DNA of 64,000 bases from Candidatus Woesearchaeota archaeon (GTDB taxonomy: Archaea; Nanobdellota; Nanobdellia; Woesearchaeales; UBA10216). The DNA lies in contig JACPTF010000016.1 of assembly GCA_016192915.1 (NCBI GenBank), positions 1-64,000 on the forward strand, read 5' to 3'. The stretch's first letter is position 1; every line of letters begins with the position of its first letter. Under the pieces are notes generated by a model, which saw nothing but the letters and a program-made list of their open reading frames with translations, was not told where the DNA came from and searched no databases. This document shows, one piece after another, positions 16,950-64,000 of the stretch. The position numbers and the translations under genes are program-made.

Positions 16950-17653
16950 CTACCCTTCGCCAAACTCCCCAAGCTTTTTCTGCCACTTACCGCTGAGCTT
17001 TTGCCTGTAAGGCGCCCAGCTCTTCCTGAAAATGTCAGGGTAAACCTCAAAGTATTTGTCGAAGAATGCGATCGTCTTCGGGTCAGTGAGGTAACCAGAG
17101 CCGAAGTCCTCTACAACAACCTTTTTTATTTTTTCAATCTCCTCATCCCTGGTAACTTTCGCGAGTATTGAGGCGGCAGAGCACTCAACATGGTTAACAT
17201 CAGCCTTATGCTCAACAACAGCCTCAATTTTCTTGTTTTTCAGCAGCCGCATAAGGTATTTCTTGTAGTTGGCAACGTTGTTGCTGGGGCTGTCGATAAT
17301 AATCCTGTCAGGATTCAGGGCATTAATAATCTCGGCTGACTTGTGCGCCTCAAGCCAGTTCAGGTTCATGCCGTCATCAGACTTCACAGAGGCGTCAATC
17401 TCGGCAGGGCTTACGATAAGGATTTTGTAGCCCTTGACAATCCTGACTATCTTGCCAAACAACTGCTCACGCTGACTTGGGCTGAGCAGCTTGGAGTCCT
17501 TCGCACCAATCTTTTTCAGCTCGGCCGCACCTACTTCGTCAGTCAGCACGCCGCACATTACCATTGGGCCGATGATGGGGCCTTTCGGAGAACCATAGAA
17601 AATTAATCCTAAAGTTCACTTCCGCTCTCATCGATCCCGCAAGCTAGTGTCAT
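16950..17653 (-). CDS. rnhB: Ribonuclease HII, interrupted by a 35-nt insert; proposed join complement(16950..17583,17619..17653)
   Basis: exon 1 MTLACGIDESG(R) and exon 2 GPIIGPMVMCGVLTDE...VEHKADVNHVECSAASILAKV; joined frame gives MTLACGIDESGRGPIIGPMVMCGV, 222 aa. Confidence 0.88.
17584..17618 (-). other. Candidate BHB intron (35 nt) in rnhB mRNA
   Basis: CGGA-[AG^U]-GAAC...GUUC-UCCG-[AA^A]: 4-bp central helix CGGA/UCCG, two 3-nt bulges, 4-bp inner helix GAAC/GUUC; contains in-frame TAG; length not a multiple of 3. Confidence 0.8.
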
Positions 17654-18681
17654 ATTGGCACCACTTCCTTATTTGTGTTCATTACTTCCCACATACCATC
17701 TTCTTTTCTTTTTATTAAACCTAGTCCTTCAAGTTCTTTCAATCTTCTGAATGCCGCTTTCCAGCAAACTCCAGCATCATCAGCTAAATCTTTAGTTCGT
17801 TTAGCGTCGCTTTTTAGTGCACAAAGGTATTTATATTTTATCGATGAAATTAAAATTACGCCATTATTCAGAGTCCAATAATCTTTGCTTCTTATCCTGT
17901 ACTTTACTATGATGCCTTCCTTTTTGAGTTCTGATAATATCTCCCATATCCTGTAATTAGACCTATCGAAAGTTTTTGCCAGTTGTTCTGTCGTATACGG
18001 TTTTATACTATCAAAAACTTTTGCAAGTGCACTTTTTAAATAATTCGGTCTATATTGTTTCTGCTTATATTTGTTTAGCATTCTATTGAATCTGTTTTTC
18101 TTATCAGGGTGTAAATCTGCAAGTCCTATCGCAGCTGCTTTATCAAAATTCTCTTTTCTTCTAATTACGTAACCTTCCCTGTGGTGTTTTGAGAACTCAT
18201 AATCTATTTTGAAAAATTCTAATCCCTGTTCTACAACAGTTACTCTTTTTGCTTGTGCCATCCTTAGAATTCTGCTGCAATGCTTCCCTTCCTTAATACT
18301 GCCTTCACCAGCAAAAAATCCTCTAAGTATCCCGGCATAATTGCGTTTATTGTTTTTAATTTCTTCAACTAACTTTCTCCATTCTTTCATCAAGCTGACC
18401 GATGCAAGTCTTCATATGAAATAAGGTTTTGTAGCTCTTTCATCGAGATAATAATTTACTTGAACTCTTTTTAGTGATATTCTCGTTTTATTTTTATTTG
18501 GCTGATATATGTATATTCTAATCTTTGGCTTATGCCTAACGAATAACCTTCTAACATTTCTGTGGAAAAACTCCACCAATTTCCAGCAATTATTAGTGAA
18601 TGTAATTTCATTTTCTGACTTGTTATCTCCTTCTGCTAACCATAAGCCAACGCATTCTGCAATTCTATCTTCATTATCCAT
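17650..18681 (-). pseudogene. LAGLIDADG homing endonuclease with a single in-frame TGA (18414..18412)
   Basis: two LAGLIDADG helices (CVGLWLAEGDN and YAGILRGFFAGEGS) in ORFs 18412-18765 and 17650-18393, same frame, separated only by TGA; start ATG at 18681. Confidence 0.85.
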
Positions 18682-18910
18682 TTTCTTTACCTCTGAAATC
18701 CCAATCAAGCGTTGAGATTTCTCACGCTTAGCTGAGAAATCTCGCGTTGTTGGCGAGGAGGACACTGAGCGGAGCTGCCTAATTGCTTTTAGGCGTTAGC
18801 CGACCCTGCATAGCAGGGGAAAAGCATAATTTGGCAGCTCTGCGGTCCTCCGAGCCTTTCGTAAGAAGTCGTTTATATACCCTCGCCGGGCACTTGTCCA
18901 GTGTCCAGTG
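18679..18910 (-). repeat. Conserved promoter+leader element, copy A (inverted relative to copy B)
   Basis: CACTGGACACTGGACA...GCCCGGCGAGGGTATATAAA...GGCTCGGAGGACCGCAGAGCTGCCAAA...TTGATTGGGATTTCAGAGGTAAAGAAAATG; near-identical blocks at 61614-61851. Confidence 0.95.
18682..18854 (-). ncRNA. Structured leader RNA, copy A, upstream of LAGLIDADG gene
   Basis: long paired rod, side hairpins CCCTGC-tat-GCAGGG and GAGATTTCTC/GAGAAATCTC; covaries with copy B. Confidence 0.8.
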
Positions 18911-59385: not shown

Positions 59386-60585
59386 TTGAACTCGTTAAGC
59401 ATGCGGAAACAGGGGATTTTTGGAACTCAATTGTCGCTGCCCCAGCTGCTGTTGATCCTGTCAATTGCTGCGGCTGTGCTTGTGCTTCCTGGTTCTGACA
59501 TCTACTCAAACATCCACTGGGGCTGGCTTTACAATTACATGATTGAGCATGGTGTCCTGCTGGAAAAGGACTTTTCTATGCTCAGCGGGAACCAGCCGCT
59601 GTATGGCGCAGGCGTATTTTCGCATATCCTGTCAGGGCTTGGCTGGTCCGCATTTGGTAAAGCTATTGTGAAGATTCTTGAAGTGCTCCTGTTCTCAGGG
59701 ATAGTGCTCCTGTCGCTGAAAATATTCAGGAACAGGAACATGCTGTTCTTCTGGTACGCGATGATTTTCGTCAAGATACTGCTTCCTGACTCCTACCCTT
59801 ACCTTCTTTCCGCCTTTCTTTTCTACCTCGGTATTTACCTGATTAAAAGGTTCAGGGACAAGCCGTACGGGGACATAGCCATCTCAGTGGCGGGGCTAAA
59901 CCACCCTTACGTCGCTGTCAGCAACATGGCAACAATCCTCTTTGGCAGGATGAGCCTTTTCCTTGCCAACGTGGCAGTGCTGCTCGCGCAGCTCTTCGTA
60001 GTCAAATACGTTTTCCTGTCAGGCGCTGTCAATTTTGAGCTTGACAACATTCTCGATTTGGCTATACGCTCTGCCATATTGCTTTTCCCTTTTGCAGCAG
60101 AGTTTGCCCCCAAATTCCTGCTGAGGCTAATGAACCTCAGGGCAGCTTATCTTGTTGTCGCAGCCGGAGTACTCTTAGTTTACCCTGTTTTTTTCGTGCC
60201 TTTCGAGATGGGATGGAAGGAAGGCATAAGCTGCTACTACACGAAAACGTACGATGAAATCCCCAAATTGCAAGGAAACATAAGGATAGTTGACGACTGC
60301 AGGAACTGGATATACGTGTTCCCGCTGAAAGGAATGGCCACTTCGCTTTCGCCATATTTTGAGGGCCAGCACTACCAGACGGAATGGAGCGAGGACGAGT
60401 ATGTATCGTACCTGAGCGAAACTAAAACGAGCTACGTCATCTTCTGCAAGAAATGCAAAATCAGGACAAAAACCCTGCAGGAAACAGGAGAGCTTGAAAT
60501 TCTGAAAAGCAACTTCCCAATTTACGCCGAGCTCGAGGGCTACACAATCTTTGACGCGAGGAAAGCCGACTTGGGAAACATTTAA
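59386..60585 (+). CDS. Multi-TM membrane protein, unknown function
   Basis: 399 aa, ~9 hydrophobic segments. Confidence 0.7.
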   Translation: MNSLSMRKQGIFGTQLSLPQLLLILSIAAAVLVLPGSDIYSNIHWGWLYNYMIEHGVLLEKDFSMLSGNQPLYGAGVFSHILSGLGWSAFGKAIVKILEVLLFSGIVLLSLKIFRNRNMLFFWYAMIFVKILLPDSYPYLLSAFLFYLGIYLIKRFRDKPYGDIAISVAGLNHPYVAVSNMATILFGRMSLFLANVAVLLAQLFVVKYVFLSGAVNFELDNILDLAIRSAILLFPFAAEFAPKFLLRLMNLRAAYLVVAAGVLLVYPVFFVPFEMGWKEGISCYYTKTYDEIPKLQGNIRIVDDCRNWIYVFPLKGMATSLSPYFEGQHYQTEWSEDEYVSYLSETKTSYVIFCKKCKIRTKTLQETGELEILKSNFPIYAELEGYTIFDARKADLGNI

Positions 60586-60603
60586 AAGAACCCAAAGGAC
60601 TTC

Positions 60604-61005
60604 TTGTGGCGCATGACCAATGACAAGGAGATAAAGGCAGAGTTCAGGAAGAAGGCATCATTGGAGCCGGATAATACTGTTATCTTACGTTTCATGGACA
60701 GCGAGGACGAGTTTCCCTTCAGATTTACTTGGTCCATTGAACTGCCAACTGGAATGTCGGGTGTGGAGATTGTTAAAATTAAAAAGTGGACTGATGAGCA
60801 CATAGACTTAGGGAGTACGGCTCGAGCATGGCTTAAACGAGCAAACCCTGGAGAGCATCCACCAGAATATCTGCTCAGTATTAGTGGACACGGAAATGAT
60901 AATCGTTGGGGGTGGTTTAATGCATTTGTAAGTGCCTTAAATACGCATCTTGAAAGGAACGGTTATAAATTAAAAAGAATAGGCCGTCATGATTTTGAGT
61001 TATAA
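60604..61005 (+). CDS. Hypothetical protein
   Basis: 133 aa ORF. Confidence 0.5.
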   Translation: MWRMTNDKEIKAEFRKKASLEPDNTVILRFMDSEDEFPFRFTWSIELPTGMSGVEIVKIKKWTDEHIDLGSTARAWLKRANPGEHPPEYLLSISGHGNDNRWGWFNAFVSALNTHLERNGYKLKRIGRHDFEL

Positions 61006-61017
61006 TAGTTGAAGACT

Positions 61018-61476
61018 TCATATGTTATTTTTTATTGAATTTAAAATATTAGCAGGATTTTTTAGGGCTTTCTTTAATAGCGCAATACCGTCCTCATTTT
61101 TGAAATTCTCATATTTTTCTATTTGCGAAAACCTCATAAATCTAAATTTTCTTTGTCTATTAAATTTATATCCTCCTTTTTTATAGAATATTATTGAAGG
61201 CATTACATAAAATTTATTGCCAGTTATATTGTGGCACACTATAAAGAAATTTTCTCTTGGTTCAAAATCTTTTACGGCAAACTGTTCTTCGTAACCTAAT
61301 ATAACTCTACTTTTAATTTTTATTTCAACATAAGCACCCTCTTTACTCTTTACAATTACGTCTACACCTTCAACGTCTGTAACGGGTACATAGATATCAA
61401 AGTCATTTTTTAAAAGCTCTGATATAATCAAATATTCTACTGATTTACCTTTCTTTACTGTATTTTGCGTTATCAT
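61018..61476 (-). CDS. PD-(D/E)XK-like nuclease family protein
   Basis: KGKSVEYLIISELLKNDFDIYVPVTDVEGVDVIVKSKEGAYVEIKIKSR. Confidence 0.65.
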   Translation of the reverse strand: MITQNTVKKGKSVEYLIISELLKNDFDIYVPVTDVEGVDVIVKSKEGAYVEIKIKSRVILGYEEQFAVKDFEPRENFFIVCHNITGNKFYVMPSIIFYKKGGYKFNRQRKFRFMRFSQIEKYENFKNEDGIALLKKALKNPANILNSIKNNI

Positions 61477-61613: not shown

Positions 61614-61851
61614 CACTGGACACTGGACAGATGCCCGGCGAGGGTATATAAACCACTTCTTACAGAGGCTCGGAGGACCGCAGAGCTGCCAAATAATGCT
61701 TTTCCCTCATCTTGCGAGATGAGGTCGGGCTTACGCCCTAAAAGCAATTAGGCAGCTCCGCTCAAAGTCCTCCTCGCTGGCTGAGAGGTTTCTTTTCCTA
61801 AGCGGAAAGAAACCTCAACGTTAGATTGGGATTTCAGGGGTAAATAAAATG
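61614..61851 (+). repeat. Conserved promoter+leader element, copy B (inverted relative to copy A)
   Basis: near-identical blocks to 18679-18910 from CACTGGACACTGGACA through the ATG. Confidence 0.95.
61669..61848 (+). ncRNA. Structured leader RNA, copy B, upstream of 632-aa nuclease
   Basis: stems GGAGGAC/GTCCTCC, GAGCTGCC/GGCAGCTC, TGCTTTT/AAAAGCA, CCTCATC/GATGAGG, GAGGTTTCTTT/AAAGAAACCTC. Confidence 0.8.
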
Positions 61852-63747
61852 ATTAATATTAGTTCAGTTCAAAATGTTAGCAACTTTATAGATGGAATTT
61901 GTGCTACAAACAAAATTAGCTATGCAGCTGTGTGTAGAACCTTTACAATCACAAAAAGAAGTCTGTACTTGTGGAGGAAGTATAATAAATTGCCTTCTAA
62001 AGAGTTACACAGGACCAAATTGCAAGAATTAACAGAGAAAACCGGTAAGTCTGTTGAGGAATTAGAGAGGGTAGGTAATATGTGTAATCATATCAGAAAA
62101 TACAGGATAGCTAAAATTATTTCTTACATCCTAATGACTAAAAAGCTCAAACAGAAGGAACTTGCAGAAACTCTTAATGTAACTCGCGCATTGCTTGACA
62201 GTGCTATGAATAAAAACGCTTATGAGCAAAATAGGCGAAACTCAACAAACTTTTTTTCTTATCAGTTAGCCAAATATTGTGTTGATAACAGTATTGACTT
62301 AAAAAATGTTGAAAGTGCCCCTTTGTTTGATGTAAGGAAATTAAACAATCAGGAATTATCTAATCTTATTTATGGTCTTCTGAAAGTATTAGAGCTAAAC
62401 ACATACGATTTGAACAAATATGGGCTGCAGGATAACACGGTATGTAGGTGGCTATTAGGAAAATCAATAATTCTACAGTACAAAGATGTAGGCATGCTGC
62501 TCGAATTAATACTAAAAACTGGCAAAAGTATCGATGAATTAATTTCTATTGGAAGTAGTGTTAGCAAGGAGATAAGGAAATTAGAAGCCCAAAATAACTG
62601 GGAAATAACAAGTTGCAATTTTAAAATTGACAATAATGCTGAGAAACTATTGTATGATCGGCTCAAATCGATTTATTCAGGCTATGAAATCCTGCATAAA
62701 GTGAGAATTTCTAAAAATAATGAAAAATTTGAGGCTGATTTTATTGCCTTTGATGAGAAGGAAACTTTGTGGTTTGAGATTACTGAAATTGTGAATACTT
62801 CAAGTTTTCCAGGCAATCTTGATATGCGTGTCTTAAGAATTAAAGAGTTACTTAAGCCGACAAAAATTGTGCTTATAAGAAGAGTGGAAACTAACACAGG
62901 TGCCTTACTTAGGTATTCTAGACTGTTAAGGTTAGGGATATTTACCTGTTCTATAGATGGAATAACTGAAATTGATAAAGTGATAGAAGAACAGGAGAAA
63001 TTAATGGAGCTATCAAAGACATTGCTCTACAATCCTATCAAAACAAGTCATGAATTAAGGATATTCAGAATGTACTGCTTAAGCATGTCAAAAAACCAAT
63101 TCGCAGCACTTTTGAATGGCAACAGCATCAGGAGCAGCGTGTTGGAATATAAATTAAAGTTACCAACTCACATCACCGCTCAAGTATCAGAAGTACAAGA
63201 GCTCCTTAGGCTGGGCAAGCCAGTTCGTGAATTGCATAGACTTTCTAATAATAAATTGCGACTCGAAACTACACAATGTAATAAAATCTTACGACAAACT
63301 AATTTTAAAGATAACTTAGAAAAGGATTTGTTCGAGCATTTAAGCAGCAAGTTTGAAGTTTATCATAATGTAGTTCTTGCTAACAAAGAAGTAACTATAG
63401 TTAGTGAAGCGGATTTGTTTATACCTGCCTTTGATGTTATTGTTGACTGCAAGAATTCAATAAACAGGCATTCTGGCACCTTCATTAAAGTTCTGTGGAG
63501 CTTGCAAAGGTTCAGAAGAATAACAAAAAACGTGGTTTTATATGTGCCTAACGCTACCGAAAGAATAGTAAATGTTTTTAAAAAGAATGGCATAGCTATA
63601 GCCAAAAATAAAGAAGAGTTGCTATTCATTATTCAAGGACTGCAAGAAAATGAGCGACAAAGAAACCAAAAGCTGGTTCAAGAAGGAAGTCCAGAAGAAC
63701 CCCGAAAAGTATTACCCCTTTGCCGTGTTAAAGGGGATGGGATTTGA
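61849..63747 (+). CDS. Modular HTH + tandem PD-(D/E)XK-like nuclease, 632 aa
   Basis: three HTH-like modules sharing (L..)TGKS(V/I)(E/D)EL; nuclease modules FEADFIAFDEKETLWFEIT and SEADLFIPAFDVIVDCKNS. Confidence 0.75.
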   Translation: MINISSVQNVSNFIDGICATNKISYAAVCRTFTITKRSLYLWRKYNKLPSKELHRTKLQELTEKTGKSVEELERVGNMCNHIRKYRIAKIISYILMTKKLKQKELAETLNVTRALLDSAMNKNAYEQNRRNSTNFFSYQLAKYCVDNSIDLKNVESAPLFDVRKLNNQELSNLIYGLLKVLELNTYDLNKYGLQDNTVCRWLLGKSIILQYKDVGMLLELILKTGKSIDELISIGSSVSKEIRKLEAQNNWEITSCNFKIDNNAEKLLYDRLKSIYSGYEILHKVRISKNNEKFEADFIAFDEKETLWFEITEIVNTSSFPGNLDMRVLRIKELLKPTKIVLIRRVETNTGALLRYSRLLRLGIFTCSIDGITEIDKVIEEQEKLMELSKTLLYNPIKTSHELRIFRMYCLSMSKNQFAALLNGNSIRSSVLEYKLKLPTHITAQVSEVQELLRLGKPVRELHRLSNNKLRLETTQCNKILRQTNFKDNLEKDLFEHLSSKFEVYHNVVLANKEVTIVSEADLFIPAFDVIVDCKNSINRHSGTFIKVLWSLQRFRRITKNVVLYVPNATERIVNVFKKNGIAIAKNKEELLFIIQGLQENERQRNQKLVQEGSPEEPRKVLPLCRVKGDGI

Positions 63748-64000
63748 AAGAAAGTGCTGCGCTAATTGTAAAACCTTTTTTTGGACAGCAATTGATTCAG
63801 AAGTTTGTGGAAATCCGGAATGCTCCGGAGGATTTCGCTTTATAGATAAATCGCCTGCGAAAAAGAGATTAAGCTATATAGAAGTCTGGCAACAATTTGC
63901 AAGTCACTTCAAGAAGCTTGGTTACACACCTATAAGGCGATATCCCGTCGCGTCAAGATGGAATCCAACAAGCGACTTTGTAGCTGCCTCAATTTACGAC
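63650..64000 (+). CDS. alaS: Alanyl-tRNA synthetase, archaeal type (5' part, truncated by window end)
   Basis: MSDKETKSWFKKEVQKNPEKYYPFAVLKGMGFERKCCANCKTFFWT...CGNPEC; open frame to window end. Confidence 0.93.
   Translation, partial: MSDKETKSWFKKEVQKNPEKYYPFAVLKGMGFERKCCANCKTFFWTAIDSEVCGNPECSGGFRFIDKSPAKKRLSYIEVWQQFASHFKKLGYTPIRRYPVASRWNPTSDFVAASIYD

Follow-up and report, generated by a model that had tools for sequence, protein, structure and literature searches.

A structured 5′ leader RNA associated with mobile nuclease genes in an order of Archaea, and its probable role in translational control

The window analysed here, a stretch of 64,000 nucleotides corresponding to contig 13 of a 1.2 Mb woesearchaeal genome, contains two copies (A and B) of a leader sequence, each preceding a gene that in turn overlaps a conserved host gene, namely rnhB (RNase HII) for copy A and alaS (alanyl-tRNA synthetase) for copy B. 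The features of the two loci are as follows.

16950-17653 (-): rnhB; its start codon overlaps the gene A stop codon
17618-17584 (-): 35-nt insert of bulge-helix-bulge (BHB) type in rnhB
17650-18681 (-): gene A, LAGLIDADG homing endonuclease gene; C-terminal winged-helix matches
18682-18852 (-): leader copy A (rod 18851-18757); covariance model R2 match 18751-18857, E 1.8e-14
60577-60672 (+): native alaS remnant, promoter and ~20 codons (MTNDKEIKAEFRKKASLEPD), matching G001 and G006
61614-61629 (+): promoter-upstream motif of copy B, CACTGGACACTGGACA
61645-61652 (+): TATA box of copy B (TATATAAA), conserved in the alignment of copies
61669-61848 (+): leader copy B, preceding gene B
61672-61773 (+): rod domain of leader B; R2 match 61666-61779, E 1.5e-14, with pair counts and the covariation test as further evidence
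61672-61678/61767-61773, 61683-61690/61751-61758 and 61697-61703/61740-61746 (+): the three rod helices of leader B
61705-61724 (+): apical hairpin 1 of rod B (CCTCATC/GATGAGG); double changes relative to copies A, C1, C14 and C20
61727-61738 (+): apical hairpin 2 of rod B (GGGC/GCCC)
61785-61816 (+): platform hairpin of leader B, arm a 61785-61795 and arm b 61806-61816
61827-61835 (+): strand c of leader B (UGGGAUUUC), which can replace arm a as the partner of arm b
61836-61841 (+): Shine-Dalgarno sequence AGGGGT, immediately 3′ of strand c, assigned by sequence and conserved position
61849-63747 (+): gene B, encoding a 632-aa protein with a helix-turn-helix N-terminus; weak HTH matches only
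63650-64000 (+): alaS, with a foreign 5′ end brought by the cassette; overlaps gene B by 98 bases

Gene A contains one in-frame TGA (18414-18412, minus strand) and shares 44% identity along its length with a homologue in G154 that is intact; intact homologues are present in other genomes. The product of gene B has two segments that on visual inspection resemble PD-(D/E)XK motifs, and is a probable homing endonuclease on the basis of its sequence; a homologue in G013, 53% identical, also adjoins alaS. A model of the gene B protein produced by AlphaFold without an alignment (pLDDT 35) was unusable. Just upstream of leader B, within the element that splits alaS, a 152-aa open reading frame (61018-61476, minus strand) gives a sub-threshold PD-(D/E)XK (PDDEXK_5) match.

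The genome contains five copies of the leader, the three others (C1, C14 and C20) lying on contigs 1, 14 and 20. It also contains 11 LAGLIDADG_3 matches, most of them in open frames of 675-1334 residues that are probably inteins, and the genes behind copies A and C20 would thus be the remaining free-standing LAGLIDADG_3 genes with leaders.

The conserved leader block begins just past a TATA-type promoter, runs in the sense direction of the gene and ends at the start codon; transcription of copy B is predicted from sequence to start ~25 nt downstream of the TATA box. Upstream of this box, the motif CACTGGACA occurs five times in the window against 0.23 expected, and the extended form CACTGGACA-N-GCCCGGC occurs 11 times in the genome and 0 times when read backwards. 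The related arrangement CACTGGACACTGGACA-N2-GCCCGGC appears to be a promoter common to mobile genes. The same arrangement also precedes rod-less nucleases, a TnpB-like open reading frame and a nucleotidyltransferase-like open reading frame of the same genome (L225-L229, L233). Each cassette consists of a promoter (CACTGGACA motif and TATA box), a rod of ~100 nt, a Shine-Dalgarno control segment and a nuclease gene; within the rod three helices are stacked and two internal loops are conserved.

Copies A and B are 82% identical over 252 aligned columns, and both are predicted to fold stably (-74.1 kcal/mol, z = -6.3 for A; -75.4 kcal/mol, z = -5.1 for B), with none of 200 dinucleotide shuffles as good in either case. 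The initial annotation had proposed, from these two copies, that compensatory base changes reflect a real RNA structure in the leader. All of the stems that it quoted were found at the expected positions in both copies, changes on both sides were found at nine predicted pairs among the five leaders of the genome, and homologues from across an archaeal order now lend strong support to the existence of a selected RNA structure. A search among these homologues for stems lacking compensatory changes did not refute the structure, double changes being abundant in 34 rods. In a structure-blind alignment of these 34 homologous rods (A5), 92.4% of cells pair, compared with 84.5% after shuffling and 46.8-54.6% after a slide of one column; 13 pairs have changes on both sides, and 70 cells are doubly changed, against a shuffled mean of 18.8 (sd 3.3), a value matched in 0 of 500 shuffles. 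A test modelled on R-scape was also performed on 86 rods, using a structure-blind MAFFT alignment, a FastTree phylogeny and a Fitch-based null. The proposed helix pairs rank at the top of ~4000 column pairs and three of them, one per helix, reach E < 0.05; the null being home-made, this result counts as support and does not replace R-scape. The two internal loops (ACGC against UUAAC, and AAAUWAUG against CAAUUA) are nearly constant. Invariance of the outer rod, a further proposal, holds between A and B only, since in relatives the outermost helix is the one that covaries most strongly. Apical hairpin 1 is missing from most other genera, whose rods have a single apical loop.

A pseudoknot between the loop of the last hairpin and the downstream sequence, also put forward in the initial annotation, can be drawn in copy A and in some of the genome's other leaders, but is not conserved. 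In the close relatives L046, L087, L042 and L098 the loop sequence AAGCG is retained while its partner is altered, and the pseudoknot was rejected for this reason; in the minimum-energy fold of copy A, moreover, the hairpin loop pairs differently. Pairing of the 3′ arm of this hairpin with the strand just before the Shine-Dalgarno sequence is a better supported alternative.

Twin-hairpin insertions of ~45-60 nt are present in L025, L033 and L094 within otherwise intact leader RNAs (rods and platform), and a similar insertion is found in the T arm of a tRNA-Ile-like region of L036 near G000:C1:29136. These insertions are possibly further mini-introns or a small repeat.

The leader is widespread within one archaeal order. 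In BLAST searches of relatives, leaders turned up in most members of the genus and in several of the family, and a degenerate pattern of the rod core, run on one genome per species (85,488 species), gave 54 loci, of which ~50 belong to Woesearchaeota or neighbouring DPANN bins. Because two lineages are offset by one base in a mixed alignment (A4), RNAalifold missed the outer helix; covariance model R2 was accordingly built from a single lineage set with a named structure, comprising 34 rods; with the exception of L075, from G007, these come from outside the genus of the window. R2 recovers the five leaders of the genome, with E values from 1.5e-14 to 1.8e-8, and has matches in 51 of the 295 genomes of the order; in a phylum-wide sample of 382 genomes, 39 have matches, all 39 in that one order, and the named matches are almost all Woesearchaeota. 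Three IMG/VR pattern matches, considered as signs of viral or plasmid spread, lie inside long open reading frames, lack the rod and look like chance, and blastn against phage and plasmid collections gave no leader match. Four bacterial contigs picked up by the rod-core pattern (L054, L072, L085 and L092; L054 and L085 within long open frames) were taken as chance matches, and a partial leader-like match beside an ArdC-like gene in G097 (L017), not found by R2, was dropped. At gathering scores, no Rfam 15 family matches the window, and in sets of 14 and 12 loci no leader match was obtained up to E 0.1. Literature searches covering homing endonucleases, structured RNA and Woesearchaeota brought up no prior description; with no counterpart in Rfam or the searched literature, the leader is an undescribed folded RNA.

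Between the rod and the start codon, the leaders fall into two classes. In class I, which includes most genera, this distance is ~49 nt and the Shine-Dalgarno sequence lies within a stem, for example CUCCAAAG/CUUUGGAG, in 44 of 45 leaders. The mean score of this stem is 23.1, compared with 10.8 (sd 3.3) when the upstream sequence is shuffled, and 36 distinct arm pairs form it. In class II, the type found in the window, the distance is ~65-73 nt, and arm b has two alternative partners, arm a and strand c, the latter abutting the Shine-Dalgarno sequence. The b:c duplex is present in nearly all of the 37 class II leaders examined (the arm-finding script misplaced the arms in two, copy A of the window and L031), with a mean score of 16.8 against 10.7 for shuffled downstream sequence. 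Swapping of partners lowers this score only slightly, to 15.3, because the arms are alike within a lineage. The letters of b:c are nevertheless changed on both strands in GAAACCUCA/UGAGGUUUC, AAGUCUCG/CGAGAUUU and GGAAUUCUUA/UAAGAGUUCU. In copies A and B the Shine-Dalgarno sequence itself is outside the predicted stem, and in the minimum-energy fold of leader B arm b is paired with arm a; judged from these models, the default state of the class II leaders of the window may be "on".

Among 80 open reading frames downstream of leaders, 51 match LAGLIDADG_3 and four match HNH_repeat. No nuclease follows the leader in L062, and a protein of the 23S rRNA intervening-sequence (IVP) type, which is not a nuclease, lies behind the leader in L068. 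The leader-bearing nuclease genes end at conserved genes, such as rnhB, carB, cysS, alaS, guaA, pth2 (names assigned by reading translations) and many tRNA genes.

At the alaS locus, the remnant at 60577-60672 corresponds to the region just before and at the alaS start in G001 and G006. Residues 1-40 of the present alaS product are 80% identical to G013 and 42-51% identical to all others, including its own genus, whereas over residues 161-200 the identity is 92-97% with its own genus and 72% with G013, in which a shortened gene B homologue occupies the same place. Cassette B thus interrupts alaS and has brought a foreign alaS 5′ end with it, a pattern that break-driven homing with co-conversion of the flank would leave.

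Of the 295 genomes of the order, 14 have a gene A homologue, in every case directly before rnhB; 13 of these rnhB genes carry an insert precisely within the catalytic motif, DEAG^RGP. With the addition of two from rnhB genes beside other cassettes (G005, G012), 15 inserts were examined (besides that of the window, at L181, L187, L189, L194, L237-L240, L242, L244, L245 and L247-L249). They are 22-45 nt long, and their central helix, flanked by 3-nt bulges, has its full 4 bp in 14 of the 15 and 3 of 4 in one, with compensatory changes among them. Cutting after the second bulge nucleotide restores [DE]E(A/S)GRGP in 15 of 15. In G053, the exception among the 14 genomes, the nuclease copy has three stops and the rnhB motif is intact. 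In our reading, the inserts are apparently BHB mini-introns that protect the target of the nuclease; a literature search on RNase HII introns found no prior description. In L071, L076 and L088, where rnhB lies beside other leader-bearing nucleases, the motif reads DEARRGP instead of DEAGRGP, which is perhaps another target-site change.

Rods from the same lineage group that precede unrelated nucleases have a mean identity of 0.827, compared with 0.685 for rods from different groups that precede homologous nucleases and 0.670 for unrelated pairs. Gene A itself follows a class II leader, its homologues in G154 and G284 follow class I leaders, and those in G008 and G208 have no detected rod before them, which indicates that the leader is not essential. 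Since the rod tracks lineage and not nuclease family, these results argue strongly against a nuclease-specific guide and fit a control module adapted to the host. A trans-acting guide or cofactor RNA, such as HEARO is for IscB, would account for the fact that almost all copies have a structured RNA immediately before a nuclease gene, and for the high conservation of the two internal loops; it is quite improbable, however, given also that the nucleases concerned belong to unrelated families and that the variable stretches are paired stems rather than free, guide-like segments. The similarity of leaders within a lineage, whatever gene follows, is also what recombination between copies would give, and the rod is so nearly self-complementary that model R2 scores its reverse strand as well. 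The rod could then act as DNA, in the form of a cruciform or an imperfect palindrome that provides a landing site, a recombination joint or a replication signal when nuclease genes are exchanged, but a conserved block that starts at a promoter, is sense-oriented and ends at a start codon, together with the conserved internal loops and the Shine-Dalgarno pairing of class I, fits RNA and makes this explanation unlikely.

The succession of a rod with conserved internal loops and a switch-like segment of competing pairs before the Shine-Dalgarno sequence recalls a metabolite or ion riboswitch, which selfish genes might carry by chance. Neither a metabolic nor a transport gene is found among the dominant downstream families and no Rfam family matches, so that a riboswitch is very improbable. 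Homing endonucleases typically ride in introns, and group I introns are present in Woesearchaeota rRNA (PMC6125680), but a self-splicing or processed intron, or a self-cleaving ribozyme, is hardly credible for an element that has its own promoter, ends at a start codon and not at an exon, and matches no group I, group II or ribozyme family of Rfam.

We therefore consider it likely that the leader is a cis-acting translational-control element, common to mobile free-standing homing-endonuclease cassettes, that keeps translation of the nuclease low. This reading builds on the observed structure, covariation, position, nuclease association, lineage-tracking and mobility signatures. Because the leader hides the ribosome-binding site or can fold against it, it probably keeps the nuclease genes quiet. 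The transcript from the TATA promoter would comprise the rod and the platform. The Shine-Dalgarno sequence would be paired inside a stem in class I; in class II, the proposed switch would leave it free when a pairs with b, and initiation would be hindered when b pairs with c and touches it. By hiding or crowding the Shine-Dalgarno sequence, the platform would thus bring about the proposed repression and limit the output of a dangerous nuclease. Transcription readthrough could supply the mRNA of a host gene whose promoter has been displaced, as is suggested by the ATGA overlaps in copies A and C1.

A plain sequestering stem needs no conserved rod of 100 nt, and translational control leaves the role of the rod unexplained. 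The conserved loops suggest a bound factor, and the rod is probably the target of a host factor or folding pathway. More tentatively, the rod might sense a host factor, or offer it a protein-binding site, and so license the translation of otherwise silent nucleases, unrelated nucleases having joined it independently and exchange within each lineage maintaining the switch.

If translational control is correct, a regulatory RNA family is common to unrelated selfish genes across an archaeal order, and mobile endonucleases can share an RNA control module and exchange it. It thereby becomes possible to test how archaea put up with numerous DNA-cutting genes ahead of essential ones, and model R2 provides a sequence handle with which to find free-standing homing cassettes in uncultured archaea.

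Among known systems, HEARO RNA (the omega RNA of IscB) is likewise a structured RNA upstream of an endonuclease gene; the present leader differs from it in tracking host lineage rather than nuclease family, and has no Rfam match. In the mobA/gene 60 cassette of phage T4, the insert in the target is associated with ribosome bypass. The rnhB insert obeys the archaeal BHB rule, which makes splicing, and not a bypass of the gene 60 type, likely. The two cassettes resemble each other in that a free-standing endonuclease adjoins an essential gene and the target there contains a short insert (PMC2988022). RNA structures that sequester the ribosome-binding site precede I-TevI, I-TevII, I-TevIII, segB and Aeh1 mobE of T4-type phages (PMC2988022), and as in those leaders, the Shine-Dalgarno sequence before a homing endonuclease is paired in class I, and free-standing endonuclease genes adjoin conserved host genes. 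The stable Seg43 hairpin of Aeromonas phage 25, which lies immediately upstream of an uncovered Shine-Dalgarno sequence, is similar to the b:c duplex of class II, but it is a single hairpin for which neither a competing a:b partner nor a rod is reported (PMC2988022). A criterion for T4-type structures is an internal alternative promoter that gives a translatable transcript, whereas within the archaeal leader no internal TATA box was noticed; its conserved promoter is upstream of the whole structure, which the cassette's own transcript would consequently always contain. Finally, the T4-type structures are separate short hairpins (PMC2988022), whereas the archaeal leader is one homologous RNA of ~170 nt that is common to unrelated nucleases and has an additional, conserved rod domain.
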